Both the position numbers and the translations under genes were made by a program. DNA of 64,000 nucleotides, taken from NCBI GenBank assembly GCA_964035545.1, contig OZ037771.1, positions 9,617,408 through 9,681,407 of the forward strand, written 5' to 3'. A model generated the notes under the pieces. It made no database searches. It was not told the origin of the DNA and saw only the letters and a program-made list of their open reading frames with translations. Shown here in pieces: positions 5,980 through 57,523 of the stretch; the stretch's first letter is position 1; each line of letters starts with the position of its first letter. Source of the stretch: Bugula neritina. Lineage: Eukaryota > Bryozoa > Gymnolaemata > Cheilostomatida > Bugulidae.

Positions 5980-6308
5980 TGTTATGATTTTCAGAATTAG
6001 GGTTGATATGCAATCCAGATAGTCTATCTACTTGCTAGAGAACTTCACCAGGATAAGTCGAGTGAAACGAGTATATATTTTACACACAAGAACACATTAC
6101 AAAAACTATACAAATACATTCAGTAATTCTACACATTTAGATCATTCAGCACTCTAACTTCGACTAACTAACAGCGGGAAAGCTAACTACTGCTACTAAC
6201 TATCAGTGTCGCATTGTTCCGGGTCAATTACGTGACCCCATGCTGTAGTAGCGGGGAAAAATAACATTTCCCCGTGTTACGTTGCTGGTAGCTCCACGAG
6301 CCACCACA
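5980..6308 (-). repeat. Ty3-1 3' LTR
   Basis: The minus strand starts TGTGGTGGCTCGTGGAGC at 6308, directly after a purine-rich tract, and ends in ATAACA at 5980. Both ends resemble those of the Ty3-2 LTR (AGTGGTGGCTCGTAGAGC and ATAACA), which defines the boundaries. Length about 329 bp. There is no second LTR to compare, so no target duplication can be shown. Confidence 0.8.
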
Positions 6309-6321
6309 CTGCCCCCACCAG
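6309..6321 (-). promoter_or_regulatory. Ty3-1 polypurine tract
   Basis: On the minus strand CTGGTGGGGGCAG immediately precedes the 3' LTR. The same context (GGGCTTTCTGCTGG followed by G-rich sequence) precedes the 3' LTRs of Ty3-2 and Ty3-3. It is the expected primer site for plus-strand DNA synthesis. Confidence 0.75.
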
Positions 6322-6655
6322 CAGAAAGCCCTCTTTCTGATATAAAAAAACTTTACAATTAACTACGTACATTAGTAGACCAAAAAGAAAAAACATAATA
6401 TATATATATATATATAGATACACAATAACAGACACAATCATTATACAGCATGTCACATACAATTGGCCAGCTATAGAGAAGGAATACCGGCTAGTTGTAG
6501 TATTGGACAAGAGGTCGAGCTGTCTAGCTGTCAAGCATTTGCATGATAGTCTTGGGTCCCCCAAGAGGGTAAGGCTTGCGGATCATTCCGGGCAGCAGAA
6601 CCAGAGTCAGTGTTTGGCAAGCCGATGTTTGGCCTGGCGGGCATGTAGTTTCCTT

Positions 6656-7675
6656 TTAATCCGGCCAACCGAGCCTTTTAACTGATAGTCCCGTCGTGGT
6701 ACTAAGCAGATCTGGTGCTAACTGGGTGAACTCAGCCTGCAGCCGGAGGAGACATTCCTCTACAGTGGCCAGGCGAGTGGGGTCTGGGGACGGTGTCCGT
6801 CTTCGACGAGGGAGGGGACTTGGAGACCGGGTCCGCCTTCTAGTCGGAAAAGGGGAGGCTTCTCCTTCTGGATAGGTAAACTCTTCGGGGGTATACACAA
6901 TCTGAGGGCGGTCAGACACCAACGGGGATTGTTGCCTGGTATAGTCTAGTACATGTTGAAAGCCCGAAGTCAGGACGGCCAACAACATTGCCTTCTTTAC
7001 TAAGGGTCGTATCAGGGTCAGGAATTCTGGGTAGAGTTTAGCATCTACCACATAATTCTCTCCAGAGAAACAGCCCGCCGCCCGGTCTCTAGTGACGGGA
7101 TAGGGGTAGACATCATTGTATCCGCAAGGACAGAATGTGAGTAATAGGTGGGCGTTGACATGCAGCTTCAGGGAGCGGTGAGAGGCACACTCTTTGTCAC
7201 AAATCTGGCACCGCGTCCTTCCTCTGGATCCCCAGGCTGTTTCTATCTGCTCCTCCGTTTCCGGCGACACCCACCGCCAGCGGCGGCGCAGTGGCTCAGG
7301 CCGGTCACCATTGGTGTACTTCTCATGATGCGGAGCGGGAAGTGCTCTATCCCGTACCCTGGTTGTAACGGGTCGAGTGTAACCTGAAAGAGTTTCAACA
7401 GCGTTAGTATAATACACTGCAGTGTTGTCGGCTTGAACAGCCTGGCAACTTCTCGTTCAGTTAACACTCGTAGAGATTTATGGTAGTGAATAGTTGGATA
7501 GAACACGTATTGCAATGAGATTGTAAAATCTCTAAGTCAAACTGAGTTCTTACCACGGTAGTTCACTAACCTATCTCCAGCTCATTGGACTCAGTGAGTC
7601 GGAGCTGAGTGATGCAATCTAGTTTCCATATCAAGATATAGTTAACTCACCCCACGATCCGTTGTCGTAAGACAT
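6656..7675 (-). CDS. Ty3-1 third gene: C2H2 zinc-finger protein, predicted two-exon (spliced)
   Basis: Predicted exon 1 is 7675-7651 (ATG plus seven codons and one base); the intron is 7650-7384 (267 nt) with donor GTGAGTTA, a TACTAAC branch-like motif about 20 nt before the acceptor, and acceptor CTTTCAG; exon 2 is 7383-6656. Exon 1 ends in phase 1 and exon 2 continues in the right frame, giving about 250 residues with no stop. Without splicing, exon 1 stops within 15 codons. Domains in exon 2: a basic N-terminal region; a canonical C2H2 finger (CQIC, twelve residues, then HVNAH); a CPC motif; a conserved DVYPYP; an Arg/Ser/Pro-rich segment; and a C-terminal segment containing RLQAEFTQLAPDLL, predicted helical. 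No signal peptide or membrane segment is seen, so it is not an obvious Env. Homologues lie at the same place in Ty3-2 and Ty3-3. Splicing is inferred. Nucleic-acid binding is plausible from the finger only. Confidence 0.78.
7384..7650 (-). other. Predicted intron in Ty3-1 third gene
   Basis: The donor GTGAGTTA (7650-7643), the TACTAAC motif, a short pyrimidine-rich stretch and the acceptor CTTTCAG (7390-7384) are all visible on the minus strand. Ty3-3 has a 266-nt counterpart at 23050-23315 with the same donor and acceptor and the same phase. Reading through the intron meets an early stop in both elements. Confidence 0.72.
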
Positions 7676-7689
7676 ACTGAATTTGTGAA

Positions 7690-7919
7690 ATGGTTTGGAC
7701 TATTGACTAGGAACACGTCTACTCTTGACTGCATCAGCATACAAAAAGATCGAGCAATGTGGTTGGGGTGCGTGACTAAGACTTTGCGCACCCGGCGGAT
7801 GAATTTCGTTTCTACTTCCGCCGATACAAAAGTTGATATTTCCGTGGTGTTGACAACTCCCACAATTGCTCGATACTTTTCCCGTACGGTTTTCCCCTAG
7901 ACTTTCGTACGCGCCGCTT
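7690..7919 (-). pseudogene. Ty3-1 pol C-terminal Cys/His tail, out of frame
   Basis: After the pol stop (7922-7920) the minus strand still encodes, in a shifted frame, a segment matching the end of the Ty3-3 pol: SGAYESL, then SCQHHGNINFCIGG and DAVKSRR (Ty3-3 has SGSYESL, SCEHHGNINFCLGG and DAVKSRR). It ends just before the ATG of the third gene. So the ancestral pol tail was probably longer and Cys/His-rich, and Ty3-1 lost its frame here. Confidence 0.6.
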
Positions 7920-9702
7920 TTAATGCAGTAACATACAAAGTCCTTTAAGTATGCGGGGGGGTTGCCTCGTACGTTGTCCCCGCTCTAGGGGAGGTGACGC
8001 ATTCGTCGGTGTACTAGTAGGGACCTCTGGTGGCGTCTCTACTTCACCGTTAGTGGTCACTTCTTCCTGTTTTCCGGATGGAGCCCCTCCCTCCGTGGGG
8101 GTTTGCATTTCCGGAAGCGGCTCGGTTTCTGGAAGTGATGGAATCAAACTTGGCGCAGGCGGTGGCGGACGCGCTTCTGCAGGCAAAAGCGGTCGCTCCT
8201 CTCTCACCAAGTCTTCTTCCCGCCGAATGACCATTTCAAATTCAGGTCCATGCCGCCGTCGCCCGCGCGTTGTCGTCTGCCTCCTGGGCTCCAACAGCGG
8301 GGGGCTTCTCCCACTGCATCCGAGCTAGCCCAATACGGCTTCAAGCGAGCCTCATTCTGGATAGACACGTGTCCTGAGCGCTCGATCTTGTTGTATGGTT
8401 GGGCATAGCCTCGATGATCACGTAGAGTCCCACGAACTTAGGCTGTAACTTAGCCGCCTGTCCGCGACGCCTACGGTAATTGACCATCCACACCCTATCT
8501 CCCGTCTGGTAGAGAGGTGGTTCCTCGGAATCTTCCTGTCGCACCTTCCACTACTGTTCGCGCAGTATTTCATGTGCGACCTTCATTCGTTCCACTGGCA
8601 TACTTGTGAACCGAGTTGTCTTGCTCTGGAACGTGGTAGGTGAGATGGTCAGGGACACGAGTCTCTCTCCCAAGCATCAAGAGGTTTGGGGTCTCACCAG
8701 TACTGGTGTGTGGGGTGCTACGGTATGCGCGTATGACTTGCGGCAACACCGTGTCCCATTCCTCCTGACTGCGTCCGAAGAGAAAACTCCGGAGCGCATC
8801 ACCTAGCATCCGGTTATTGCGCTCCACCACCCTGTTACCCTGGGGATGGTAAGGGGTGGTCCTGCTCTGATTTACTCCCCAGAGGCGGCAAAAGTCGCTC
8901 ATCAGTTGGGACTAAAACTGAGCGCCTTTGTCAGAGTGTATCTGTTCGGGGAGCCCGAAATAACAGAATACATGTTGGTCTAGCGCCCTGGCCACTGTTG
9001 GGGCTGACGCATCTGGGATAGCCAGAGCGTCCGCCCACCTAGTAAAGTGGTCAGTCAGTACTAAGATCCAACTATTGCCTCTTAGGGTCAGCGGCATGGG
9101 TCTGACCAGGTCAACAGCTACTACTTGCCACGGCCTGCCAGCATATAACCTCCGCCGTCCCGCTTCACCAGGGAGACGGCCATGGTTGCTGGCCTGGCAG
9201 ATTTCACACTGTTTTACTCTGAGCCGGACATATCGCCCTATTTTGGGCCAATACCACCGGAGTTGTAATTTAGAGATCACTATCTTGACCCCTGTGTGGG
9301 CCTGCTTGTGAGTGTCCCAGATTAACTCACGGCGTATGGCGCTGGGGCAAACCACCTTCTTCCTCTCCGGGTGTCTGCCGTTGGCAGCTAGAGAAATGGT
9401 CAGTAGACCATCTTGCCCGATCCTCAGCGAGTCCCAACACTGGCAGAGTAGCCGGAACTTGGCGCATCCCTGCCGTATGCGTTCCTCGCTGGGTCGTCGT
9501 CCTTCCTTTTTGACCCGATATATGTCTGCCACTACCCCAGGCAGCTCTTCCTGGAGCTTCTTCAGCTTCCGGACATATCAGCCAAAACAGGATTGGCGCG
9601 GAGGTTTTGTACAACCTCCGGGGACTCGTCAACCTCCTGCCTGGGTTGACCTTGGTCCTAATCAAACTGTGCTCCGTGGTGAGCCAGTGTCTCTAGTTCA
9701 CA
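7920..9702 (-). pseudogene. Ty3-1 integrase and proline-rich pol tail, broken
   Basis: The integrase catalyses insertion of the element's cDNA into the host genome. From 9532 it shows the HHCC zinc domain (DTHKQAHTG, later CEIC), the first catalytic Asp (VAVDLVRP), the second (HSDKGAQF), a stop just after that at about 8912-8914, then in the next frame the catalytic Glu (VVERNNRM). The C-terminal GPY/F-like module is at 8544-8341 (GDRVWM, later KFVGLY; the Pro of GPY is Leu). The tail 8294-7920 is rich in Pro and Glu and ends with QRTRQPPRILKGL, an anchor also seen in Ty3-3 and Ty3-4. At least one stop and two frameshifts make it inactive. Confidence 0.9.
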
Positions 9703-11343
9703 TCACGGGGGACCTCCGTCCCATCTCTCGATGTTGAGACACTGTTTGCAACCTCCATCGGGTCGGCGGCTCAAACCATCCGCATTGCTGTGTATCTTGC
9801 CCGGTCGATGTTCAATCCGGTACGAGAACTCAGCTAGGATTTTGAGCCACCGGGCGACCTGACTGGAGGGTTCCGCTCTCTTGCACAACCAGATCAGAGA
9901 GGCATGGTCCGTACGCAGCCGGAACTTCCTGCCGTACAGGTATGGTCTGAAGTGCTTTACTGACTTGATTACTGCCAGCAGTTCCTTGCGGGTAGTGCAG
10001 TAATTTTGTTCAGTGGGTGAGAGAGACTTACTGTAGTAAGCTACTACTACCTCTCGGCCTTCCTGCACTTAAGACAGCACAGCGCCAACGTTCTGGTCAC
10101 TGGCATCAGTGTCGAGGATGTACTCCAGATTGGGGTCTGGGTAGGCCAAGATGGGTGCCGTCAGTAGGCAACCCTTGAGGCAGTCAAACGCTCCTTGTTC
10201 GACCAGGGTCCACTGCCACGTCACTCCCTTTGCGATGAGCCGGTTTAACGGCTGTGCTATGCTCGTAAAGTCTGGTATGTATTGCCTGTAATACCCTACC
10301 AGCCCCAAGAAAGCCCGAAGTCCGGTCAAGTCTTGGGAGGTGACCGAGTCTTCTATCGCCCGTACCTTTTCAGGATCCGTTGCCACGCCGTTTCGACCGA
10401 CAACGTGCCCCAGGTACTTGACCTTCGGCTGCAATAGAGCGCACTTAGAAGGTTTGAGCTTAAGACCAGCACCTCGGACTCTCTCGAAGACCTCCCGCAG
10501 ACGACTGGTGTGTGTCTCGAAGTCTGGGGAAATCACGATGACATCATCGAGGTAGATCGGCAGTGTCTTCCAATTGAGCTCGCTGAGGACTTGCTCCATC
10601 AGCCTCTGGAAGGTGGCTGGGGCGGAAGTTAATCCGAAAGGCAGCACCTTCCACTTCCACAAACCATCCCGTGTGATAAGCGCCGCCTTCTCCTGGGCGT
10701 CGGGACTCAGAGGAACTTGCCAGTAGCCGCTCAACAAGTCTAGCGTACTGAAGTACTTACTGCCGGCTAAGGCGTCCATTGACTCGTCAATAGGAGGTAG
10801 AGGGTAGGCGTCCTGTATGGTTACCCTATTGAGCTTGCGGTAATCCACACAAAACCGCCGACTGCCGTCTCTCTTCCGGACCAGTACGACCGGCGAGCTC
10901 CACGCACTATGGGTGGGCTCTATGAGGCCGCGGTTCAGAAAATCCCGGACTTGTCGGCTGACCTCCTTCTCTTTCTTCGGCCCCAGCCTGCGCGTGGGTT
11001 GCCGGATAGAGACCGTTCCTGCAGTCAGCGGTATTTCGTGTCTGACAACTCCAGTCAGTCTCACGTCATTATCTCCGCTGCTGAACACATCACCGTAGTC
11101 GCGTAGCAACTTCGCCATAGCTTGGCGTTCCTTGTTGCTTGCGCAGCCACCACAGGCTGTTTCATATAACTCCCGGATGTGTGTTGAGACCGTCCCTCGC
11201 CCCTGAGTAGGGCGCCGAAGGGGTGCCTCCGTCGCATCACCCAGCGACCGGCCAACGTCCTCCTCCTGGACAGAGTGGAACCAGATCAGCATTGACCCAG
11301 CTGGGAGCTTGATGGGCTCGGTAAAGAGGTTGACACACTGCAC
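9703..11343 (-). pseudogene. Ty3-1 reverse transcriptase and RNase H
   Basis: The RT copies element RNA into DNA. The frame 11343-10069 contains the RT palm with CVDYRKLNRVTIQDAYPLP, the STLDLLSGYWQVPL block with its first catalytic Asp, PFGLTSAPATFQRLM and the YLDD box (IYLDDVIV); the thumb includes FLGLVGYYRQYIPDF. A TAA at about 10069-10071 falls at the start of RNase H, where relatives have Gln; the frame then continues to 9703 with YYSKSL, NYCTTRKELLAV, and the DHASL and HSNADGLSRR motifs. The RT core itself is the best-preserved in the window together with that of Ty3-4. Confidence 0.93.
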
Positions 11344-12266
11344 TAAGATCTCCCCTGCTCAGTCAGCTGGTTCAAACTGCTGGCGAGTTGGATCCTTTCG
11401 TGCACACCTTCAACTACCCCGAGTCCAGAGATCCGGCTATTGTTCACTCTGCAGTGAATGGTAGCCCGGGAGCGGCCTAGCACAGTACAGTTTTGTACCA
11501 CCTGCACGCCTCCCACCAAGGGGCGGCCGAACTTGTCGATGCAGGCGAGTTCTCGCCCGGACATCACCATCGCAGATTTACTAAAATTGATGTGACATCC
11601 GTGCCGTTTCAGGAATGGCATCCCGAGGATGGCGTCCTCCTTGAGCTGACTGACGATAAACGTCTCTTAGATCGTTTGATCACGGACGTGTCTCGTCAGC
11701 TCAATTATATCGTAGGAGGGAAGAAACGACCCGTCAGCCAGGGTGCCATACTCCCCCTCGTTTGGTTCCATCTCGTCTCTGACCCTAGCACTGAGGGTGT
11801 CGAAGAGTTGGCGACTTATGAGGTTCATGGTACAGCCCGAATCGATTAGGAAAGTAACAGCTTTGCCTTCCAATTTGCCGGGCAAGAAATAGCTGTTTCC
11901 ATAGGGCTGCACCTGAACTCTCCCTTCGTGCTTTGCTCTCGCAGGGAGTACCTCCCTCGCTTTAGGTCGCGAAGGAGGTCGCTTGGGATGGTGGTAAGTT
12001 GGCCTCGGAGGTGCAGAGGCTAGATTTCCGGCTACCTTCGCTGGCTCCCATCCAGTTTCTTGGGCCGGTAGCTCGTCGAATCGATTGTGGAGGGGCATAG
12101 AGAAGGTAGTGGCGGGGCGGGGCTTCTTGCTGGTCCGTCGTGGCTGTTGCCACCCTCGGTTGTCAGCATGCGGTACCCTTCTGGGTGACGTACGTTTTTT
12201 CTTCCCTGGGGGTTTCATCGTCGGCCCGCAGGAGGTGGGAACATCTGCGGGCCGCGGTAGTTTAAC
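11344..12266 (-). pseudogene. Ty3-1 pro region: retropepsin, broken
   Basis: In the frame reached after -1 frameshifting, 12266-11667 encodes a basic, proline-rich linker, then a retropepsin with active site LIDSGCTMNLIS. A TAA at 11667-11669 interrupts the protease before the ILGMPFLKRHG segment, which continues in the same frame to 11344. The last codons are shifted by a one-base loss (EQGRS then stop, where relatives read GEILVQCVN). The TAA lies at the same codon as a TAG in Ty3-3. Confidence 0.88.
12223..12266 (-). promoter_or_regulatory. Ty3-1 gag-pol -1 ribosomal frameshift signal
   Basis: On the minus strand the heptamer GTTAAAC (12266-12260) is followed by a 6-nt spacer and a perfect 9-bp inverted repeat (GGCCCGCAG 12253-12245, CTGCGGGCC 12231-12223) with a 13-nt loop. 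The pol frame begins at this heptamer. Ty3-3 has the same arrangement to the base, although the elements are otherwise diverged. Confidence 0.8.
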
Positions 12267-12605
12267 CCTGGAGTTAGGAAGAGACAGCACCTGCGGAAGT
12301 GTCCTTGTTTCCGCATTCCCAGCAAAAACTGACCGTTTCCCCCGGTGGCGGCGCCGGTGGCCGTACTGGCTCAGAGGCGCTACCTACTGGGGTTTGGGAT
12401 GTCAGTGTTGCTATCAGTTTGGCCAGCATGTCGGTCAGTTGAGTGACTTTCGATGCTGCCGCTAACTGGGCCACGGCAGCCGTCGCGGAGGTTTCCTCCT
12501 CTCGCACCGCTCCCGTGTCCGCGTGGTCAACCTCCACTTGACGGGAGTTCCCGCGACTTTTATGCATCTGGTTTGCCAGGAGATAAGCTACGATCGTGCA
12601 GGAGT
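12261..12605 (-). pseudogene. Ty3-1 gag, C-terminal fragment with zinc knuckle
   Basis: Gag forms the virus-like particle. Here only the C-terminal part remains: the end of the capsid (AYLLANQMHKS), a helical segment (KVTQLTDMLAKLIATL) and FCWECGN. The frame then slips by one base; in the shifted frame the nucleotides give GHFRRC, so the ancestral knuckle was a regular CX2CX4HX4C box. The capsid N-terminus is lost at the junction with Ty3-2 near 12590-12605. Confidence 0.82.
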
Positions 12606-12958
12606 AGAGCTACGATCGTGACGACAAAGGGGGTAATATTATTTCCCTTCTAAATGCAGCACGGAGTCACCAAGTGTATTAAGAAGATGACCCGAGACAG
12701 CAATCTGCCAATAGGAATCATGAACTATAATTAGGAACTGTGACTTCCCGCGTAACAGTTATTTAGGAATAGACTGGCAAACTGTAAGCACTGTGCTGAG
12801 TAGTTGTTGATGTGTTCATAGATTTAGTTTTTGGATTGTGTATTAGCATATGAATATATTATTGTAACCTGAACCTTACTTGCGGAGTTGATTTAGCTTA
12901 CGTGTTATGAAGTAACTTGATTGCACACTAAAACCCACAATACTGAAAAAAGATAACG
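12595..12958 (+). repeat. Ty3-2 5' LTR
   Basis: Matches 17514-17879 over its length, from GTAGAGCTACGATC to the terminal AGATAAC. Its first dozen bases do not match the 3' LTR well and abut the truncated gag of Ty3-1. The last base before the primer site is G where the 3' LTR has A. Confidence 0.85.
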
Positions 12959-12959
12959 G

Positions 12960-12977
12960 TGGTGGCAGCGGTGGGAT
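12960..12977 (+). promoter_or_regulatory. Ty3-2 primer-binding site (tRNA-Leu)
   Basis: TGGTGGCAGCGGTGGGAT is complementary to the 3' end of a metazoan tRNA-Leu including CCA (from memory of that tRNA). It is separated from the LTR by one G, as in Ty3-3 and Ty3-4. Confidence 0.8.
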
Positions 12978-12994
12978 AGTTGTGTATATCAACG

Positions 12995-13885
12995 ATGGAG
13001 ACTGACGATGCTGGAACACCACCACAGCCAATAGAAGGTGAGCGTGGAGATAATTTAGTTCCTGTGAATCGTGTAGTAGAAGATCGAAGAGCTCCGAGGG
13101 AGTTGAATGAGGATCGATACCGGTTAAAGGCACCCACTTTCACAGGTGAAGAAGTGGAACAATTCATACAGGAATTTAGTGACGTGTTGGACATCACTTA
13201 ATGGCCACCTAGGGTGGCCCTGCTGAAGCTTAGAATGTCATTGATGGATAAGGTCAAGCCCTATGGGTTAGGACAGGACATCGACAGTATCTTTGCTTCT
13301 CTGCAGGCCCGTTTTGGCATCTCCGCCATAAACGCCCGGGCCCGACTACAAAGGCTGCGGCGTGATCCACACACCCCGCTACAAAAACATGCCGCTACAG
13401 TGATGACGCTGGCGCAGATTGCATACAGTGATCTGCTTCAAGCTAACCGTGAACGGTGTACTTTTGACGCTTTGTACAATCTATCAACGACTTGGGACTC
13501 CATCACCAATTTCTGGCCAGGGGCGTTACCACAGTCGAAAGCGCCCTTGCAGAAGGGGAGGCCTATCTTCTGGCAAAACAGATGCATAAGAACAGCGGGG
13601 TTTCCCGCCAGGTGGAAGTAGAGTCAGCGGTCACCCCAGCCGATCTAGAGGCGGAACCCTCCGCGACCGCTGCTGGACAGTTAGTTGCTGTATCGAAGGT
13701 CGCACAACTGACCGACATGTTGGCTAAACTGGTGACGACACTGACACACAAAACCTCGGTAGGTACCGCTCGCGAGCCCCCACGGCCACTGGCGCCACCA
13801 CCACGGGAAGCAGTCAGTTTTTGCTGGGAATGTCGAAATCTACATTTCCGTAAATACTGCCCCCCTTCTTGCTCCGGGGTTAAAC
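12995..13885 (+). pseudogene. Ty3-2 gag
   Basis: This copy keeps a plausible start, ATG at 12995 (METDDAG); the homologous codon is AAG in Ty3-3 and ATA in Ty3-4. The capsid runs from KAPTFTGEEVEQFI to AYLLAKQMHK. A TAA at 13199-13201 stands where Ty3-3 has Arg, and one base is lost near 13470, so the C-terminal half is in another frame (13492 onward). The knuckle is degenerate (CWECRNLHFRKYC, no His at the right place). Two more bases are lost after it, so gag and pol are now fused in one frame across the GTTAAAC. Confidence 0.85.
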
Positions 13886-13922
13886 TACCGCGGCCCGCAG
13901 ATGTTCTCGCCTCCTGCAGGTC
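13879..13922 (+). promoter_or_regulatory. Ty3-2 decayed -1 frameshift signal
   Basis: GTTAAAC (13879-13885), 6-nt spacer, GGCCCGCAG (13892-13900) and CTGCAGGTC (13914-13922). The second arm carries two changes relative to Ty3-1 and Ty3-3, leaving one mismatch and one G-U pair. Because gag and pol are already fused here by indels, the signal is a relic. Confidence 0.65.
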
Positions 13923-14770
13923 GGCAATGAATTTTCCAGGGAAGAAGAAACGTAGGTCACCCAGATGGGTACCGCGTGCCAACAACCAGGAGTGGCATAA
14001 GCCACAGCGGACAGGTAAGGGGCACCACCTCGCTGTTACCTTCTCCATGCCATTCCACATTAGAATTGACGGGCTGCCGACCCAAGAATCGGAGTGGAGA
14101 CCAGTACAGGCGTCAGAAAGCCCGCCTCTCCCCTTCGAGGTCACCTTACAACCGTCCCAAATGACTACCTCCCCGACCCACAGCGAGAAAGGTGCTCCCT
14201 GCAAGAGTACGGCCCGAAGAAAGAGTACGGGTGCAACACCATGGGCACAGCTATTTCTTACTCGGCAAGATAGCGGGTAAAGCTGTTACCTTCCTGCTCA
14301 ATTCGGGCTGCACCACGAACCTCATAAGGCGCCAACTCTTCGACACCCTTGGCGCTAGGGTCCGAAGCGAGATGGCACCATACGACGGGGAGAATGGCAC
14401 CCTGGCAGACGGGTTGTGCATTCTTTTCTATGGTATAATTGAGCTGACGGGACGCGTCCAAGATCAAGCTATCCAAGAGACGTTTATCGTCAGTCAGCTC
14501 AAAAAGAATACTATTTTCGGGATGCCGTTTCTGAAACGGCACGGATGTCACATGGACCTCACTAAGTCTGCAATAGTGATGTCCGGGCGAGAACTAGCCT
14601 GTGTCGATAAGTTCAGCCATCCTCTAGTTGGAAGCGTGCAGGTAGTACGGAACTGTAAAATACCGTGCCGCTCCCGGGCTACTATTTACTGCAGAGTGAA
14701 TAATAGCCAGACATCCATGAAAGGGTGGTGGAAGGTGCGCACGATAGAATCCAACTCGCCAGTAGCCTAA
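13886..14770 (+). pseudogene. Ty3-2 protease region
   Basis: Runs in the fused frame to 14280, then continues in a second frame at 14192-14770. The active-site triad reads NSG (LLNSGCTTNLI; Asn codon at 14300-14302) instead of DSG/DTG, so the catalytic Asp is lost. Unlike Ty3-1 and Ty3-3, the codon after AIQ/QTI is not a stop here (CAA), and TIFGMPFLKRHGC follows in frame. Confidence 0.85.
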
Positions 14771-15977
14771 ATCAGCTGACTGTGTGAGGAAAGATCTTAG
14801 TGCGGTGCGTCAACCCTTTTTTACGGAGCCGGTGAAGCTACCTGCAGGGTCCATGTTGAGCCGTTTCCACTCTGGCCAGAAAAAGGACGTGGGACCGTCG
14901 TTGGGGGACACGGTAGAAGGTCCCCAACAGCGCCTGCAAAAAGATTGGGGACCGTCCGGAAACGCATCCAGGGGTTGTATGAGATGGCCTGTGACGGCTG
15001 TGCGAGCAACGAGGAACGCCAGGCTATGACGAGGTTGCTACGCGAATATGGTGATGTGTTCAGCAGCGGAGACCATGACGTGGGGCTGAAATGAGCTGTC
15101 AGACACGAGATACCGCTGGCTGCAGGAACAGTTCCTATTCGGCAACCCACATGCAGGTTGGGGCCGGAGAAAGAGAAGGAGGTCAGCCGACAAGTCCGGG
15201 ATCTTCTGGACCGCGGCCTCATAGAGCCAGCCCATAGCGCATGGAGCTCAGCGGTGGTTTTGCTCTGGAAGAAAGACAGAAGTTGGCGGTTCTGTGTGGA
15301 TTACTGCAAGCTCAATAGCGTGACCATACAGGACGCCAACCGTCTACTTTGTATTGATGAATTCTTGGACGCCCTAGCCGGCAGCAAGTACGTCAGTAGG
15401 TAAGACTTGTTGGGCGGTTACTCGCAGGCCCCTCTGAGTCCCGACGTCCAGGAGAAGGCGACGTTGATCACACGGGACAGACTGTGGAAGTTGAAGGTGC
15501 TGCCGTTTGGGTTGACTTCTGCCCCGGCCACCTTCTAGAGGCTGATGGAGCAAGTCTTGAGTGGACTTCACTGGAAGACACTGCTGATCTACCTTGATGG
15601 CGTCAAGACACGTCAGTTGTCTGAGGGAGATATTCCAAAGACTCAAAGGTGCTGGTCTGAAGCTGAAACCTTCCAAGTGCGCTCTGTTGCAGCCGGAGGT
15701 TAGGTACCTAGGGCACTTTGTCGGTTAAAACGGCGTAGCAACGGATCCTCAGAAGGTACAGGCTATAGAAGACTGATCATTCTCCAGGATTTGACCGGAC
15801 TCCGGGCTTTCTTGGGTCTGGTAGGGTATTACAGGCAATACATACCAGACTTTGCGGGGATAGCACAGCCGTTAAATCAGCTCACCACAAAGGGGGTGGC
15901 ATGGCAGTGGACACCGCTCAAACAACAGGCATTCGATTGCCTCAAGGATTTCCTAATGACGGCACCCTTCTTGGCCC
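14771..15977 (+). pseudogene. Ty3-2 reverse transcriptase, dead
   Basis: RT motifs are in pieces: SRQVRDLLDRGLIEP, CVDYCKLNSVTIQDA, a stop at about 15402-15404, PFGLTSAPATF followed by TAG, and IYLDG at about 15588 where YLDD is expected. About 30 nt are missing just after that. The thumb (FLGLVGYYRQYIPDF) is intact at 15791-15960. The frame ends at a deletion that removes the start of RNase H. Confidence 0.9.
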
Positions 15978-16525
15978 AGTCAGAAAATTCCGGCTGCTTA
16001 CGGATCATGCCTCCTTGATTTGGTTGTGTAAGAGAACAGAATCATCCAGTCAGGTCGCCCGGTGGCTTGAAGTCCTAGCCGACTTCTCTTACTGGATGGA
16101 ACATTGACCGGGTAAGAGGCACAGCAATGCGGATGGTTTGAGCTGGCGGCCTGATGGAGGTTGTAAACAGTGTCTCAACATCGAGAAGAAGGATGGAGGT
16201 CCCCCACGATCTGAGTTAGAGACACTAGCTCACCACGGAGCATAGTTTGACTGGGACCAAGGTCATCTCAAGCAGACAGTTGACAAATACTCGAAGGTTG
16301 TACAAAACCTCCACGCCAATCCTGTTTTGGCCAATAATGTCCGGGAGCTGAGGAAGCTTCAGGAAAACTTGCCCGGGGTGGTGGCAGACGCGTATCAGGC
16401 CAAAAAGAACGGGCGACGACCCAGCGATGAACAACTGAGACAGGAATGCGCCAAGTTCGGGCTGTTTTGCCAGCGTTGGGACTCCCTGAGGATCGGGCAG
16501 GATGGTCTGCTGACCATTACTCTAG
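15978..16525 (+). pseudogene. Ty3-2 RNase H end and integrase N-terminal remnant
   Basis: The sequence resumes at FRLLTDHASLIWLC and continues through HSNADGLSWRPDGGC, then NVRELRKLQENLPGVV and the segment before the integrase zinc domain (CQRWDSLRIGQDGLLTITLAA). The zinc domain, catalytic core and C-terminal module are absent. The frame runs without a stop from 16327 directly into the zinc-finger gene. Confidence 0.87.
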
Positions 16526-17215
16526 CCGCCTCACCCATAGAGGAAGAAGCAAATGGCAGACTACCAGGACTACTGCGCCGCCGTTGGCGGTGGGTGTCAC
16601 CGGCAATAGAGAAGAAAATAGAGGCTGCGTAGGGGCCGAAGGGAAGTACCCAATGTCAAATCTGCTACGAAGACAGGCTGTCTCACCGCTCCCTAAGACT
16701 GCACGTAGATGCACACTTTCTATTGACCTTCTGCCCATGCGGACATCACGATGTCTACCCATACCCGATCATTAAACATAGAGCTGCTGGATGCTATCAC
16801 AGGGAGAACTATGTCATGAATGCCGACATGTATCCAGACTTCCTAACGCTCATCCGGTCACTAGTAAAGAAGGCAATGGTGCTAACCGTCTTGATCTCTG
16901 GATTTCAGCATGTACTAAGTATGCCCGGCAGCAGTTTTCCATAGTAGCAGACACTCCTAATGAACCAACCTCCGCGGAGATGGAAGAAGAGTTAAAATTC
17001 CCTCGCCGGAAGGCTATGACACCACCACCAGACCGCCCAACCCGTCTGGCCACCGTAGAGGAGTGACTCCTTCGGTTACAGGCCGACTTCACGCATCTAG
17101 CCCCAGATTTGTTAAACACAACGACTGGGCTGTACCAGCTTAAGGGCTTGGTGGGAAGAATAAAACGGAGACTGTGTGCCCGCCAGGCTAAGCATGACAA
17201 TGACAATGACAATAG
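16526..17215 (+). pseudogene. Ty3-2 third gene (C2H2 zinc finger), fused to integrase remnant
   Basis: In the frame of the integrase remnant: RRRWRWVSPAIEKKIEAA, a TAG at 16630-16632, then CQIC followed by twelve residues and HVDAH (a canonical C2H2 finger), FCPC and DVYPYP, ending in SGFQHVL. A frameshift follows near 16920. The C-terminal segment appears in another frame (TRLATVEE, stop, LLRLQADFTHLAPDLL). Exon 1, the intron and the start of exon 2 are deleted. Even in this poor copy the finger residues are conserved with Ty3-1 and Ty3-3. Confidence 0.82.
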
Positions 17216-17491
17216 TCTTCGTCCATGGGACATATCTGTGAATCTCGTCCTTTCTGGGGATTCCCGATGACAAACATTATGATCACGTAAATGCCTGTTA
17301 CTTCCTCTTCCTTGGATACCACTATAGTTAGCACTATTTCTCTTTCTATAGCTGATCAATTGTGGCTACCTTGTTCTTGGTGTAATGATTATGCTTTTGT
17401 CGTCATTTATGTATATATGTATATTATATTATGTAACTGCTTTTATAATATTCTGTATTTTGCGAGGGAGTGTATTTTTTATCAGAAAGTG

Positions 17492-17513
17492 GGCTTTCTG
17501 CTGGTGGAGGCGA
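17492..17513 (+). promoter_or_regulatory. Ty3-2 polypurine tract
   Basis: GGGCTTTCTGCTGGTGGAGG followed by CGA sits directly before the 3' LTR, matching the layout in Ty3-1 and Ty3-3. Confidence 0.65.
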
Positions 17514-17879
17514 AGTGGTGGCTCGTAGAGCTACGATCATGATGACGAAGGGAGAAATAATAATTCCCTTCTAAAAACAGCACGGAGTCACTAAGTGTAA
17601 TAAGAAGATGACCCGAGACAGCAATCTGCCAATAGGAATCATGAACTAAAATTAGGAACTGTGACTTCCCGCGTAACAGTTAGTTAGAAATAGACTGGCA
17701 AACTGTAAGCACCTTTTCTGAGTAGTTGTTGATGTGTTAATAGATGTAGTTTTTACATTGTGTATTATCGTATAAATATATTATTGTAACCTGAACCTTA
17801 CTTGTGGAGTTGATTTAGCTTCCGTGTTATGAAGTAACTTGATTGCACACTAAGACCCACAATATTGAAAAAGATAACA
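17514..17879 (+). repeat. Ty3-2 3' LTR
   Basis: About 366 bp, from AGTGGTGGCTCGTAGAGC to AAAGATAACA, homologous to 12595-12958. The flank after it (ATACATTAC) has no counterpart before the 5' LTR, so no target duplication is visible. Confidence 0.88.
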
Positions 17880-18026
17880 ATACATTACAGTTGTTACAAA
17901 TGTAAAACTAGTAAGTTGGATGCAAATAAGCGTAGTAATATTACTCAGTTTATGCTATCTTAGAAATTTGTAGTAAATAGTTGGCATGCATGTGCATATA
18001 TATATAAATATAAATATATAAAAAAC

Positions 18027-18070
<44 letters not shown>
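17880..18070. other. Spacer ending in a (TA)n tract
   Basis: AT-rich sequence without motifs, becoming a (TA)n microsatellite at about 18031-18070. The MITE that follows is inserted into this TA tract, and the tract continues on the other side. Confidence 0.8.
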
Positions 18071-18075
<5 letters not shown>

Positions 18076-18819
18076 GATAGTTAAGGGCAACCTTTTAGCT
18101 GCAACTGCCTTGCTGAGGTTTGCATTGTAATCATATAAGAATTCAGTACCAGTAAAATAAAATCTCACCTAATTGTGCTAGAGTCAAAATTTAAAAACTA
18201 TGTTGTAGATCTTCTTTTTCCCCAATGTAAGTTTTGTGGAAATTTCAATTTTCATTTTTTTTGCAAAGTTATAGACAGAAAACTGCCCAATTTTGGCCAA
18301 TTTTGCCTGAAAAGCTGACTTTTCAGTACCAGTAAAATATCTCAGCAGGAAAACATGATATCTGAATAAAATTTGCACTGCTGGAATCCTGAGATATTTC
18401 TCCAGTGCAATTTTTTTCTTTTTCCAATAACTCTTCTAGATTGCCCACAAATTGGTGATTTATACACTGAAAATGCTATATTTTTTCATAGAAAATTAGC
18501 AGCGCGCAGTACTTCACGCTTCAATGAGCACGTAGGGATGAGAAGATATTGGCGGTACATGCTAATTACAGGCTTACTAGCTGGTAGGCTATAATGAATA
18601 GCTTGCTTTGTACTTTGTTTATGTAGCACCCATAATGGAATGTTGATAGATTACGCAGCCCTAATGAAGGTTGCTGCTTATTGGTTGTAGTTTGATCCTA
18701 GGCTAAACAATTGCAAGTAGGCAACACGCATGCCACCCACAAAGCCATATTATTCAAGAACCTAAACTACATTCTGAGAGAAACTTATGACATTCTTAGT
18801 GAGGATGCCCTTAACTATC

Positions 18820-18824
<5 letters not shown>
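18071..18824 (+). mobile_element. MITE copy 1 (TA target duplication, Tc1/mariner-like)
   Basis: 754 bp with inverted ends CACAGGATAGTTAAGG and CCTTAACTATCCTGTG (outer bases CACAGG/CCTGTG), flanked by TA on both sides. A second copy in the opposite orientation is at 26417-27172. No transposase is encoded. A shared open frame of about 65 codons (18378-18184 minus; 26852-27058 in copy 2) has no recognised motif and probably persists only because the DNA is similar. The TA duplication suggests mobilisation by a Tc1/mariner-type enzyme; this is inference. Confidence 0.88.
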
Positions 18825-18887
<63 letters not shown>

Positions 18888-18905
18888 ATGTATATATGGA
18901 TGTAT
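18825..18905. repeat. (TA)n and TATG-variant microsatellite
   Basis: TA repeats continue from the MITE end, then change to TATGTATG and TATATGGATG variants before unique sequence resumes at about 18908. Confidence 0.9.
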
Positions 18906-18907
18906 AC

Positions 18908-19060
18908 ATAAACCAAACGACATTGTGGTTGGTTCTAAGAAAGCTTGGCTGCCCAGAACAGTTCACAAACCTGATTGCAGCTCTATATACAGGAATGAAA
19001 GCCTCTGTCAACCTAAAAGGAGATCTCTCAGCACTATTCGAGATCACAAACGGTGTAAAA
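18908..19060 (+). pseudogene. LINE reverse transcriptase scrap
   Basis: About 50 codons in one plus frame: TLWLVLRKLGCPEQF, then LYTGMKASV and FEITNGVKQ. This is the RT segment leading up to the NGVKQGCVLAP block of many invertebrate LINEs. It breaks off after the Gln, exactly where a hAT-like end seems to start. It differs from the two LINE remnants at 1.7-4.9 kb. Confidence 0.75.
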
Positions 19061-19295
19061 CAGTGGTTCCCTACCTGGGGAGGAATTTTCCCTTAGGGAA
19101 GAATTTGGACATTTTAGGGGAGGAATTTGGATTTTGAAAAATTCATGCAACTTTTTGACAGTTTTTGAGCTCTAGCAAGTTACATGTATATGCATATCTA
19201 TAAATCTTCATCTCAGTTCATCTATTTAACCAGCCCATATTCTACAATCTCGGTTTACTTCTATATGAATGTATTTATTAATTACTTTACCCTAA
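19061..19295 (+). mobile_element. Possible hAT-type transposon left end
   Basis: CAGTGGTTCCCTACCTGGGG at the start resembles the common hAT terminal motif CAGNGGTTCYCAACC (from memory). The rest is AT-rich with a repeated GGGGAGGAATTT. I found no matching right end before Ty3-3 or after it, so the element is incomplete or the call is wrong. Confidence 0.4.
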
Positions 19296-19299
19296 CTAT

Positions 19300-19650
19300 T
19301 GTAGTGAGTCATGCAATGTACTAATATAAGAATCGTCCTCTTTCCGTTCGGGGAAAACTAAGGCCCCAATGTATTAGTCAATAAGAAGAACCGGAATATG
19401 TACTTCCGACCCATGTGACAGTTCCCGGGCAATTAGCAATTATCAGGTTGTTGTAAGCGAGGGCTTGAAGTGTAAACACGCATTAGTAGTGACTGATGTT
19501 GTATTGTAATTTGATGTAATGTTTGTTTTGTATTGTATTGTGGATAATAAAGGTAATGACTCGACAGCTACCCTAGTAATTGCTAGTAGAATAGCCTACT
19601 AAATACGCAAGTAAAAAAACTCACGCACAGTAATTGCACAAATTACTACA
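19300..19650 (+). repeat. Ty3-3 5' LTR
   Basis: 351 bp. Differs from the 3' LTR by an extra stretch of about 29 bp near its start (around 19320-19350) and scattered changes. AATAAA lies at 19546-19551, about 100 bp from the end. Confidence 0.93.
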
Positions 19651-19651
19651 G

Positions 19652-19669
19652 TGGTGGCAGCGGTGGGAT
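19652..19669 (+). promoter_or_regulatory. Ty3-3 primer-binding site (tRNA-Leu)
   Basis: TGGTGGCAGCGGTGGGAT, one G after the LTR, identical to Ty3-2. Confidence 0.82.
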
Positions 19670-19670
19670 C

Positions 19671-20633
19671 TTGCGTATAACAGTCAAGGCAGAAGACGGT
19701 ACGGAGCTACCCATTCCACTGAATGAAGGTGAGGAAGATAATGTTGATATAACTGTGGAACCAGTAGTGTTAGAAGAAGTGAGAGTTCCTAGAGAGTCCG
19801 GTGAGGACAGATACCAGCTGAAGGCGCCCACCTTCACAGGCGAGGAAGCCGTAGAGCAATTTATCCAGGAATTCCAAGATGTGATGGAAGTTGCACGGTG
19901 GCCACCAAGGGTGGCGTTGCTCAAACTCAGGATGGCGCTGACAGACAAGGCTAAGCCCTACGGAACGGGACCTGATATAGACGAGATCTTCGCTTCTCTG
20001 CGGGCCCGTTTTGGTATCTCTGCCATAGATGCGCGGGCCCGCCTACAAAGGCTGCAGCATGATCCTCACACGCCGCTGCAGGAGCACGCTACCACGGTGA
20101 TGACGCTGGCGCAAATCGCGTTTCGCGATCTGCCTCAAGCGAACCGTGAGAGGTATACTTATGATGCCTTCGTGCAGTCCATCAACGACTTGGGGCTCCA
20201 CCATCAATTCCAAGCGCGGGGAGTCGCCACGGTCGAGGATGCACTCGCGGTAGGAGAAGCCTACCTCTTGGCGACTCATATGCACTGCAACCGCGTGGCC
20301 TTACACCAGGTGGCCACGGAGCACACTACTGCTCATACTGAACCAAATGCAGAACCCTCCGCGTTGGCTAATGTGACCCAGATGACGGTAGCATCGAAAG
20401 TCGCTCAGATGACTGACATGCTAGCCAAACTGGTCGCCACGTTAGCTCCCCCAAGCCAGGTAGATACTGCCCGTGAGCCTCGCGGGCTGCAGGCACAATC
20501 ACCAGGCACGAGGCATAACTTCTGCTGGGGATGCGGAAGGCTTGGAAATTTCCAGAAGAACTGCCCTCAACTCCAACAAGGGTTAAACTACCACGGCCCG
20601 CAGATGTTCCCACCTCCTGCGGGCCACCGGTAA
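19671..20633 (+). CDS. Ty3-3 gag, start codon lost
   Basis: An uninterrupted frame of about 320 codons, the best-preserved gag here. It would normally start near 19686, but that codon is AAG where Ty3-2 has ATG; the frame is open from 19671 (TTG). The capsid runs from KAPTFTGEEAVEQFI through KAKPYG and FGISAIDARARLQRL to EAYLLATHMH. A helical segment (KVAQMTDMLAKLVATL) precedes the knuckle CWGCGRLGNFQKNC, in which the His of CX2CX4HX4C is Asn. Gag ends 45 nt after the slippery heptamer. Role: particle formation and RNA packaging. Confidence 0.88.
   Translation: MRITVKAEDGTELPIPLNEGEEDNVDITVEPVVLEEVRVPRESGEDRYQLKAPTFTGEEAVEQFIQEFQDVMEVARWPPRVALLKLRMALTDKAKPYGTGPDIDEIFASLRARFGISAIDARARLQRLQHDPHTPLQEHATTVMTLAQIAFRDLPQANRERYTYDAFVQSINDLGLHHQFQARGVATVEDALAVGEAYLLATHMHCNRVALHQVATEHTTAHTEPNAEPSALANVTQMTVASKVAQMTDMLAKLVATLAPPSQVDTAREPRGLQAQSPGTRHNFCWGCGRLGNFQKNCPQLQQGLNYHGPQMFPPPAGHR
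20582..20625 (+). promoter_or_regulatory. Ty3-3 gag-pol -1 ribosomal frameshift signal
   Basis: GTTAAAC at 20582-20588, in gag phase G TTA AAC; spacer 20589-20594 (6 nt); stem arms GGCCCGCAG (20595-20603) and CTGCGGGCC (20617-20625), perfectly complementary, with a 13-nt loop. Slipping back one base puts the ribosome into the frame encoding LPRPADV and the protease. The frame relation (gag frame 0, pol frame -1) agrees. Confidence 0.85.
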
Positions 20634-21564
20634 ATCATCCAGAGAGGACAACGCGTCTGCCACCCCCCTGGGCGCCACGCGAGGATACTGTGGAGTGGCG
20701 ACCACTACGGCAAGTAGGCTGTTCAAGCCACTCGCCACCTGGGTTCTCTATGCCACTCCGAAACAGATCCGACGGGCTGTTGACCTCAGAGCCTGCGAGG
20801 GAAACGGTACAGGCGCCGCAAGGCGTACCACCCCAACCTCGGCAGCTGGTCATTAGTCGTCGCCAACCATGGACCCTCGACCCACAGCGAGGGAGGTGCA
20901 ACCACGGCACACACAAATGCAGCCACACGGGAGTAGCTACTTCCTGCCAGGAAAGCTAGCTGGCAAGCCTGCCAACTTCCTTCTGGACTCGGGCTGCACC
21001 ACCAACCTCTTTAGCCGTCAATTCTTTGACACCCTCAGCGCTAAGGTCAGGGACGGGCTGGCACTGTATGAGGGGGATCATGGCACCCTGGCAGACGGGT
21101 CGTGCATTCCCTTCTACGGCATTTTTGAGCTTACTGGGTGCGTTCGTAACCAGACCATCTAGGAGACGTTTATCGTCGGACAGCTCAACGAGGATGCTAT
21201 CCTCGGGATGCCATTCTTACAAGGACACAGATGTCGCATCAATTTCAGCAAATCTGCAATGATCATGGGCGACAGGGAGCTTGCCTGTGTCAATAAGTTT
21301 GGTCGTCTTCTAGTGGGAGGAGTGCAGGTCGTACGGAGCTGTACGATACCAGGCCACTCCCGGGCTACCGTCCGCTGCAAAGTAGACGGTGGCCAGACCT
21401 CTAGGTTGGAAGTTGTCAAAAGTTTGCACTCAAGAATCAAACTTGCCCACAGCTTTAGCCGGCTTACAGGACACGGAGAGATCTTGGTGCAGTGCGTCAA
21501 CCCCTCCTCAGAGACGGTGGACCTGCCATCCAGGTCCATGCTGGGCCGCTTCCATCCTGTCTAG
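20589..21564 (+). pseudogene. Ty3-3 protease region
   Basis: Entered by -1 frameshifting. A Pro/Arg-rich linker leads to the retropepsin with FLLDSGCTTNLFSRQFF (about 20975-21030). A TAG at 21160-21162 interrupts it before AILGMPFLQGHR, which continues in the same frame with RELACVNKFGRLLVGGVQVV. It ends at a TAG at about 21562-21564 just where the RT-proximal linker begins. Confidence 0.88.
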
Positions 21565-22014
21565 GAGGAAGACATTGGGCCGTTGTTGAGAGCTACGACG
21601 GAAGGTCCTCAACAGAGCCCGTCTCAAGGGCGGAGGACCGTCCCAACCCACGCCTCCCATTCTCCAGGGACGCGTGGCTACGCGGGCAACAGAAGGCGCC
21701 ATGCCATGGCCAGGTTGTCACGCCGGTACAGTAAGGCACCCCGCCACACAGACCATGACGCCCGCCTAAATAGAGCGGCCTATCGTGAGGTACCACGGGC
21801 GGCGGAGACCACCCCTACTCGGCAGCCCACGACGAGGTTGGGCCCGAAGAAGAAGAACAAAGTTCCCCCGCGGTCCCCGCTGGCAAAACGGGACTCGGGC
21901 CAACTCCAACAGAGGGCTGACACGCCCCCGAAGGCCGTCCAGAGCCTCCGCGCCAAACCTGTATGGGCTGGTAACGTTGGGGAGCTACCGAAACTCTAGG
22001 AAAACCTTCCTGGA
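21565..22014 (+). pseudogene. Ty3-3 pol linker across the RT/RNase H deletion
   Basis: The pre-RT linker reads on through TRQPTTRLGPKKKNKV, the sequence just before RT in the relatives, then jumps to LRAKPVWAGNVGELPKL, which in relatives lies after RNase H. So about 1.6 kb of RT and RNase H (estimated from Ty3-1) is absent. The intervening 20 codons match neither side clearly. Confidence 0.8.
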
Positions 22015-23001: not shown

Positions 23002-23024
23002 TCATTTACCGCTCTCATTCCAAA

Positions 23025-23974
23025 ATGTCTTACTATTCTGGATCGAAGGGTGAGTTAGTTATGTTTTTAGTACAGGAACTAGACTGCATCAGTCAGCTCT
23101 AGCTATGCCAGTTAGCGAGCTGGAGATTCGATAATGAAACACAGTGGTGGGAACACACGTCGACTTAGATTTTAAATAATCTGCCATAGCGAGTGTGTTC
23201 TCGATCAACTATTCTTTAGCCTGAATCTCACGAGTGTAACTGAACAGAGCACCTGTCAGGCTGTACATGCCGGCGATACTTTAGTGTATAGTCTTTAACA
23301 CTGCTACTCTTTCAGATAACACTCGAGTGACCACCTCCCGGTCACGGGACCAGCCAACCCCTCTACCCATGGAGGAAGAACTAGTGATGGAAAGGAGGAT
23401 TGAAAAAGCCTGGGGACCCAGCGGACCCCACCAGACCTGTCAGGTCTGCCTTGAGGAGTACCCGTCACACCGCTCCCTGCATCTGCATGTAGACGCACAC
23501 TTTCTACTGCACTTTTGTCCATGCAGGTTCCATGATGTGTACCCGTACCCCGTGATAATCCACAAGATGAACTGCTTTGCCGAAGAGGGCCATATCGTAG
23601 ACAAGGACAGTTTCCCCCAGTATCTAGACATCATCAAGCCGGTCATCAAGAAGGCTATAACCCTGGCTGCGCTAGCGTCAGGGTTCTAAGTACTACTGCT
23701 GTCTGCCCGCCATAAGTCTCCTATGGTTAAGGTCCCGTCCACTACCCCCGTCAACCCTAGTAACACTCCCGAACCAGAAGAAGTGACGATACCCTCTACC
23801 CAAGAAACTACAACAACCCTGCCAGGACCCAGCCGATTTGCTACTGTAGAAGAGCGGCTTTTAAAACTACAAGCCGAGTTTACACAACTTGCTCTTGACC
23901 TGCTGGATACAACAACATGTCTATACCAGCTGAAGGACTCAGTGGGGCAACTGAAGCAGAGGCTACGTGCCTGA
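23025..23974 (+). CDS. Ty3-3 third gene: C2H2 zinc-finger protein, predicted two-exon (spliced), one stop
   Basis: Exon 1 is 23025-23049 (ATG plus seven codons and one base), followed by donor GTGAGTTA. The intron is 23050-23315 (266 nt) with acceptor CTTTCAG. Exon 2 is 23316-23974, joined in the correct phase. Exon 2 has a short basic region, a canonical C2H2 finger (CQVC, twelve residues including the Tyr and Leu core positions, HVDAH), FCPC, DVYPYP, and then TAA at 23687-23689 in the SGF(Q) codon context. The same frame continues with a Thr/Pro-rich linker and FATVEERLLKLQAEFTQLALDLL, predicted helical, ending at 23974. Matches Ty3-1 in order, splice sites and intron length. No membrane segment is seen. 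Function unknown. Confidence 0.76.
23050..23315 (+). other. Predicted intron in Ty3-3 third gene
   Basis: 266 nt from GTGAGTTA to CTTTCAG, with TCTTTAAC about 22 nt before the acceptor as a possible branch site. Unspliced reading stops after 25 codons. Stretches inside the intron (around the CTAGACTGCATCAGTCAGCT segment) are also similar to the Ty3-1 intron. Confidence 0.72.
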
Positions 23975-24303
23975 CAAGCTCAGCACAGATCGCGCTCACT
24001 ACAAGAGTGAGAGCTCACCTAATAAGCATGCCTGTGAAAGGCACCTTTCGGCGGACTGCATTATCGTCGCGTAGATGACCAGCTCCCCCGACCATTGGCC
24101 CGCGTGCTGTATAGCACCCTCTCTCTCTCTCTGTAGCTGACCAACTGTGTGTTTGACCACTCTGTTTACCTTCTTGTATATATATGCTTGTGTGTACTAA
24201 AATATTTCTCTTCTTTCTTTTTGTGGGTTTAATTATGTATCTTTTAGATTATTGTACTGTTTTTATATGTATTTTTTTGTGTGTTCTCAGAAAGTAGGGC
24301 TTT

Positions 24304-26378: not shown

Positions 26379-26416
26379 TTAGGATGAAATTTTACTTGGT
26401 GCTTTTACTAAAACTA
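26379..26416 (-). pseudogene. BEL pol, last codons after the MITE
   Basis: Twelve codons in frame with the upstream part of pol, ending VKAPSKISS and TAA at 26381-26379. They were separated from the rest by MITE copy 2, which sits at a TA. The TA flanks (26415-26416 and 27173-27174) are the target duplication. Confidence 0.72.
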
Positions 26417-36082: not shown

Positions 36083-36118
36083 TCCACTTGATACAAATGC
36101 TCCTAGCCAGGGAGTAAG

Positions 36119-57487: not shown

Positions 57488-57523
57488 AGCACATTTAGGC
57501 ACTGAAAAGTGCCTAAATGTGCT
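57488..57523. other. Perfect palindrome at satellite strand switch
   Basis: AGCACATTTAGGCACT, a 4-nt loop GAAA, and its exact reverse complement. To the left the satellite module reads on the plus strand, to the right on the minus strand, so this is the hinge of an inverted arrangement. Confidence 0.9.

Follow-up and report, generated by a model that had tools for sequence, protein, structure and literature searches.

A spliced zinc-finger gene behind pol in a Ty3/Gypsy retrotransposon of Bugula neritina and the predicted hairpins of its intron

What does a Ty3/Gypsy retrotransposon of the bryozoan Bugula neritina encode behind its pol gene, and what could that product act on? The question arises in a stretch of 64,000 nucleotides of contig OZ037771.1 (positions 9,617,408 to 9,681,407; the window in what follows), where an open reading frame, ORF3, sits between pol and the 3' LTR of an element on the minus strand (6656-7675). 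A preliminary description, made from the letters alone, had split this region into two exons and an intron; reading of the minus strand bears out those coordinates to the base, and the same holds for the end of exon 1 (23049) and the start of exon 2 (23316) proposed for a second copy (Table 1). The analysis establishes ORF3 as a genuine third gene of a Ty3/Gypsy retrotransposon with a high copy number.

Pfam recognizes RVT_1, RT_RNaseH_2 (partial), Integrase_H2C2 and rve in the window copy, and from the coordinates RNase H precedes integrase, the order of Ty3/Gypsy elements. Elsewhere in the genome, one copy (L039) has an open pol of 1467 codons. Among seven elements examined, the LTR pairs are 96-100% identical, and a 4-base duplication flanks six, with one mismatch in the seventh. 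Two subfamilies, A and B, are represented in the window. The donor of the window copy, a subfamily A member, reads GTGAGTTA from 7650 on the minus strand, a TACTAAC motif lies at 7409-7403, and the acceptor CTTTCAG ends at 7384; joined, the exons give 25 + 728 = 753 nt in phase. This copy is mildly damaged, having an Asp in place of the histidine of its second zinc-binding unit (column H101 of the alignment) and a C-terminus out of frame relative to the other copies.

Table 1. Positions of ORF3 copies and associated features in the window
Feature	Positions	Strand	Remarks
ORF3 exon 1, subfamily A copy	7651..7675	-	25 nt from ATG, ends in phase 1, encodes MSYDNGSW + G
ORF3 intron, subfamily A copy	7384..7650	-	267 nt, GTGAGT...TTTCAG; predicted structured RNA
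Intron stem-loop 1	7578..7607	-	predicted
Intron stem-loop 2 (long irregular hairpin)	7473..7577	-	predicted
ORF3 exon 2, subfamily A copy	6656..7383	-	728 nt with stop
Zinc finger 1	7148..7210	-	C-X2-C-X12-H-X3-H
Putative zinc-binding unit 2	7070..7132	-	C-X1-C-X12-H-X4-C in other copies; here His is Asp
pol stop codon TAG	7700..7702	-	24 nt upstream of the ORF3 ATG
pol remnants of the window element	8912..12383	-	RT/RNase H and integrase open frames, frame breaks
Third ORF3 copy	16519..17195	+	internal deletion fuses pol to ORF3; stops and frame change
Start of subfamily B element after 5' LTR	19651..19733	+	candidate gag donor GAAG/GTGAG at 19728/19729
ORF3 exon 1, subfamily B copy	23025..23049	+
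Intron, subfamily B copy	23050..23315	+	266 nt
ORF3 exon 2, subfamily B copy	23316..23974	+	broken by TAA at 23687-23689

The subfamily B element is flanked by the arms of an inverted repeat (18119-18826 and 26415-27123), 93-95% alike, and the fusion of pol to ORF3 by internal deletion is seen in two copies, one in the window (16080-17195) and one elsewhere (L013), the latter inside an open frame of 1388 aa running from integrase through to ORF3 exon 2. A further gag-pol element (36107-41515, plus strand) gave no match to ORF3 by tblastn and none to the intron profile, so that not every gag-pol element here possesses the third gene. The remains of another retroelement, perhaps BEL/Pao-like, occupy 27711-32315 on the minus strand. 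The part of the window from about 44064 to 64000 contains very large arrays of minisatellites spaced at 10 and 128 bases; near 63179-63927, more than one of their frames is open.

The scale of the family was assessed over the genome (215.8 Mb, 295 contigs). With the window exon 2 as query, the best 150 of 908 candidates were scored, 20 with an internal stop and 130 without; the subfamily B query gave 231 matches, the best 150 of 811 candidates being scored, so that both counts favour well-kept copies. The word formed by exon 1 and its donor occurs 156 times in subfamily A and 98 times in subfamily B, with no occurrence of the reversed control pattern. Among 60 loci followed individually, 55 have an exon-1 match; the donor is GTGAGT in 48 of the 49 with a mapped acceptor and GTGAGA in one, while the remaining exon-1 loci comprise three with a donor whose acceptor was not matched by the search expression and three that are intronless. 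The TACTAAC motif, put forward earlier as a feature of the gene, is present in the window intron and proves variable across the family: it occurs in 11 of the 25 subfamily A introns with a mapped acceptor, next to TATTAAC in 13 and another sequence in one, and most subfamily B introns have CTTTAAC at its position.

Two more distant lineages, C and D, were sampled at eight loci, seven of which have the donor. Relative to one subfamily A copy (L003), ORF3 identity is 71% in lineage C (L076) and 50% in lineage D. All four lineages share the GTGAGT donor and an exon 1 ending in phase 1 wherever it is whole (L078 lacks its start); exon 1 measures 22 nt in D and 25 nt in each of the other three. Since donor and phase are constant while the exon-1 residues differ across lineages, the pattern is that expected of a real coding exon, and the conservation of intron and splice phase that a genuine family gene should display is found in four diverged lineages.

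Direct evidence for splicing comes from genomic DNA. When the whole genome was searched for the joined exon 1-exon 2 pattern, allowing up to three mismatches, the exact junction was found at four places in subfamily A and four in B, and at none with the reversed control. The four subfamily A copies, compared whole, are full-length from LTR to LTR and differ from the intron-bearing reference by a single large gap, which begins right behind exon 1 and stops right before exon 2. Their LTR pairs are 96-100% identical, 4-base target-site duplications surround them (with a one-base difference in one of the four), and ORF3 runs uninterrupted over 268-270 codons. As the four lie at different target sites, there were at least four occasions on which intron-free RNA was packaged and integrated. 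The claim of a spliced gene with exons in matching phase is thereby borne out by eight exact intron losses: an intron of about 265 nt just after pol is spliced out, joining an ATG exon of 22-25 nt to exon 2. Genomic copies lacking exactly an intron can serve as a general proof of retrotransposon splicing where RNA data are not at hand.

Not every intronless copy needs to stand for a separate loss. One of them (L037) is 8% apart from the other three A copies in 3' pol and 17% in the ORF3 region, which indicates an independent intron-loss event; two others (L036 and L038) are 1% apart in the ORF3 region and may descend from a common intronless parent, and the fourth (L035) has a pol closest to that of an intron-bearing copy. 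In subfamily B, where the elements were compared at the junction, two places share one sequence and two share another, and two of the four, on the same contig and 172 kb apart, may be duplicates of each other. We infer that the same two positions saw at least three independent losses, and probably four or more. Intron-bearing words nevertheless number 254 in A and B together, against eight joined ones.

The preliminary description had further proposed that the spliced message is subgenomic, as in errantiviruses; here the splicing stands, and a subgenomic message is a possibility; the intronless A copies derive from RNA from which only the small intron was removed, with gag-pol retained. A donor, GAAG/GTGAG, does lie 43 nt after the gag ATG in seven of seven subfamily A elements, in a phase that would join ORF3 exon 2 in frame, and its conservation makes an errantivirus-like gag-to-ORF3 mRNA possible. 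No copy with a junction from the gag donor to ORF3 was found in subfamily A with three patterns (two exact, one with up to three mismatches), leaving that route possible but unsupported. Translation could equally well proceed from RNA spliced at the small intron only or from an internal start; the start codon of ORF3 may be reached by reinitiation after pol, from an internal promoter or on a subgenomic RNA.

Selection was measured on the 44 of 60 loci with exon 2 open over at least 190 codons, a set biased towards intact copies because 16 loci were dropped (in five the start of exon 2 was not recognised, and 11 were too short). The pooled pN/pS is 0.129 for the 26 copies of subfamily A and 0.188 for the 18 of B; in the eight pairs of highest dS, dN/dS is 0.05-0.09 in A and 0.11-0.17 in B; between the subfamilies, dS is saturated in 463 of 468 pairs. 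The dN/dS near 1 that had been named beforehand as grounds for abandoning the gene does not appear, the values being about 0.05-0.2, and purifying selection on ORF3 is supported. The notion that ORF3 is a chance frame, or a captured host fragment, without function is contradicted by these ratios, by the phase kept in four lineages and by the eight exact intron losses, and its probability is negligible.

The encoded protein has about 270 aa in subfamily A. Its finger 1 has the ligands C60, C63, H76 and H80 (alignment columns), spaced C-X2-C-X12-H-X3-H, and a second unit follows with C86, C88, H101 and C106, spaced C-X1-C-X12-H-X3/4-C. For each of the eight proposed zinc ligands, the residue is present in 43-44 of the 44 copies; one lineage C copy has lost two. 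A canonical C2H2 finger and a separate CPC motif had been reported in the preliminary description: the finger is there, and CPC turns out to be the start of the second unit, so that the finger apparently belongs to a tandem pair with a degenerate C2HC-like unit. The C-terminal segment VEERLLRLQAEFTQLAPDLL...LKRKLRARQAKHR ranks with the most conserved stretches of the protein and has a basic end. In a scan including eight copies, the Pfam C2H2 matches remained below the curated cut-off (E 0.07-0.15); NCBIfam, which is oriented towards prokaryotes, returned one weak, unrelated match, and AlphaFold, run on three window sequences, gave an unusable model (pLDDT 37). Subfamily A proteins also contain an arginine- and Ser-Pro-rich stretch (RTRSPSPP...RRRRTPSPDP), absent from B and D, which therefore cannot be a core RNA-binding part; it is reminiscent of sites for proline-directed phosphorylation, one of which is described as required in CERV in the available part of the source (PMC10309623).

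The position of ORF3 between pol and the 3' LTR, its splicing and the in-phase donor at the gag start in seven of seven A elements are also what a diverged envelope-like protein, made in errantivirus fashion, would display. In five intronless copies, however, no membrane segment was found, the highest 19-residue hydropathy mean being 1.67 in a stretch with two lysines, no Env family occurs among the weak Pfam matches of eight copies, and the zinc-ligand patterns are conserved. On hydropathy and family scans the Env reading was rejected, and we regard it as very improbable; ligand patterns, hydropathy and selection together confirm the earlier view of a non-Env zinc-finger protein in the position of env.

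C2H2 fingers most often bind DNA. The main rival reading is accordingly that ORF3 is a DNA or chromatin binder, serving integration targeting, anti-silencing or transcription from its own LTR, with the intron as a regulatory convenience whose structure only tunes splicing. Finger 1 fits the ordinary C2H2 pattern (in the sub-threshold Pfam matches given above), and the best PDB profile match, which aligns both units, is the tandem-finger protein INSM1, at an insignificant E of 0.5. Yet the protein has two units only, the second non-canonical, and DNA binding alone leaves unexplained that most copies keep a hairpin-bearing intron despite its recurrent loss. This rival reading is rather doubtful in our estimate.

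Relative to shuffled sequences, the introns of the A and B window copies have fold z-scores of -2.55 and -2.35, as opposed to +0.80 and -0.10 for stretches of exon 2 of equal length. The two structures, predicted separately, have 33 pairs in common. Scored on 50 introns, these pairs form in 98.8% of cells (22-43% with one arm slid), a test that is not independent, as the structure was derived from the sequences scored. Changes on both sides occur in nine of the 33 pairs, a number that 14 of 500 shuffles attain; the further pair types amount to 18, below the shuffled mean of 21.0 and reached by 500 of 500 shuffles.

A stricter comparison consisted of scoring the structure predicted from one subfamily on the other. 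Over the whole intron this cross-prediction is borderline, with p 0.07 and 0.03 for all changed pairs and p 0.01 and 0.09 for the doubly changed ones, and outside the centre it gives p 0.68 and 0.10; the claim of conservation over the whole intron was thus narrowed to the central hairpins, a restriction chosen post hoc. There, the A-only structure keeps nine of ten doubly changed pairs in B, against 4.3 expected (p 0.005), and the B-only structure eight of 11 in A, against 4.7 expected (p 0.04); counting all changed pairs, 13 of 21 are kept from A to B (8.2 expected, p 0.02) and 11 of 25 in the reverse direction (8.0 expected, p 0.11).

Lineages C and D, whose introns had no part in deriving the pairs, were scored as well. 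Mapped through A, lineage C introns pair in 95 of 99 cells, and lineage D introns in 117 of 120 cells via B and 115 of 116 via A, compared to 15-53% for the slid control; the pairs scored are mostly letter-identical and, as C resembles A and D resembles B, these tests are not fully independent. One lineage D intron differs from B at four of 30 pairs, all four of which still pair. A consensus of 17 introns from the four lineages again consists of stem-loop 1 and the long hairpin, with five of 30 pairs doubly changed and kept. A search of Rfam over window positions 6200-24300 yielded five weak matches, none inside an intron. Taken together, there is moderate support, from predicted folds, for intron hairpins conserved across four lineages with compensatory changes.

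Low divergence was at one point taken as a sign of strong constraint on the intron. Subfamily A introns differ by 0.048-0.054 and the 4-fold sites of exon 2 by 0.23; the adjoining tail of pol proved equally low, and the argument was withdrawn. In the last 450 nt of pol, a control that covers subfamily A, 4-fold sites differ by 0.043 (0.229 in exon 2 and 0.115 further upstream in pol), and second positions, at 0.057, are no more conserved than the 4-fold sites. This suggests a young or recombined block, or an overlapping RNA constraint.

Hairpins within an intron could also work by themselves. According to such an explanation, the hairpin would be an autonomous element (a packaging or dimerisation signal, or a splicing silencer) without contact to ORF3, which would serve another step. 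The intron does mark genomic RNA, and its retention in most copies (254 against eight words) agrees with this. Intronless full-length copies were nonetheless packaged and integrated, and the intron is therefore not an absolute packaging signal; we consider this explanation unlikely.

The reading preferred here links the two parts of the gene. The hairpins lie in an intron that genomic RNA must keep, and the zinc-finger protein is the product of the RNA that has lost it, from which an interaction between them may be supposed. With a conserved structure in the intron, the element's own RNA becomes a more likely target than DNA, chromatin or silencing. In this scheme, the ORF3 protein would be made only after removal of the intron, would act in the nucleus on the element's own RNA and would recognise the RNA still carrying the structured intron. 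The bound RNA would then be shifted from splicing to export, translation and packaging as genomic RNA, amounting to a feedback switch built on the same logic as CERV/Cer1 or Rev/RRE. The account as a whole, that is, a selected, spliced zinc-finger ORF3 that acts on its element's own intron-bearing RNA through such a switch, we put at slightly less than an even chance. A self-contained RNA-fate switch, where a tandem zinc-finger protein recognises the intron of its own gene and spares genomic RNA from splicing, is a tentative possibility that leans towards doubtful.

HIV Rev is a regulator made from spliced RNA, and the RRE is a structured RNA within an intron of the RNA that retains it. The likeness to the present gene is the structured RNA predicted inside an intron, with a putative binding of ORF3 to it; no sequence relation of Rev to ORF3 is expected. 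A nearer counterpart is Cer1 of C. elegans, a Ty3/Gypsy-related element, which, as far as the accessible text describes it, makes a non-Env nuclear protein, CERV, from a spliced mRNA, needed for the export of unspliced genomic RNA (PMC10309623). CERV has a cysteine-rich, putatively zinc-binding loop, which is essential and can be likened to the ORF3 units (same source, in part). In the same text, however, CERV has 517 aa and H, M and G domains and is encoded by five exons, of which the initial three are read in the gag frame, and no structured intron of Cer1 is described there (PMC10309623), while ORF3 has about 270 aa, two exons after pol and C2H2/C2HC-like units. The parallel drawn here is functional only.

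Other elements resemble this one in their layout. The errantivirus gypsy has a spliced third gene after pol, and a possible donor at the gag start is found here too; as outlined in the portion of the source available, that gene is an envelope glycoprotein expressed from a subgenomic mRNA (PMC4276936), whereas ORF3 has no membrane segment and only its small local intron is seen to be removed. The plant elements Ogre, CRR, Bagy2 and BARE1 are LTR retrotransposons with spliced RNA, although the splices described lie between or within gag and pol ORFs or serve an env RNA, and a zinc-finger third gene does not figure in the excerpt consulted (PMC3735527). Orchid Ty3/Gypsy elements with an AlkB-like ORF have likewise acquired and retained an extra gene acting on RNA; theirs is a 2-ODD demethylase in another host group, and the part of the paper at hand describes no structured intron (PMC9289625). 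Spliced LTR-retrotransposon RNAs and extra genes are, on these partly available sources, already known (PMC3735527, PMC9289625). Among the titles and abstract openings searched, no description of a zinc-finger third gene in a Ty3 element was found, and a known relative may exist. What is new here, with moderate support, is an ORF3 intron of about 265 nt with hairpins conserved across four lineages.

Retroelements must export RNA that still carries introns. To our knowledge, few element-encoded export factors are known apart from the retroviral regulators and CERV. The present family offers a candidate factor and a candidate RNA target within a single gene of 1 kb, in hundreds of natural copies, and as these include intronless ones, the question of export and splicing becomes directly testable. 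If the proposed switch is true, an RNA-fate switch would have evolved in these elements independently of Rev/RRE, with both the protein family and the structured intronic RNA being new.
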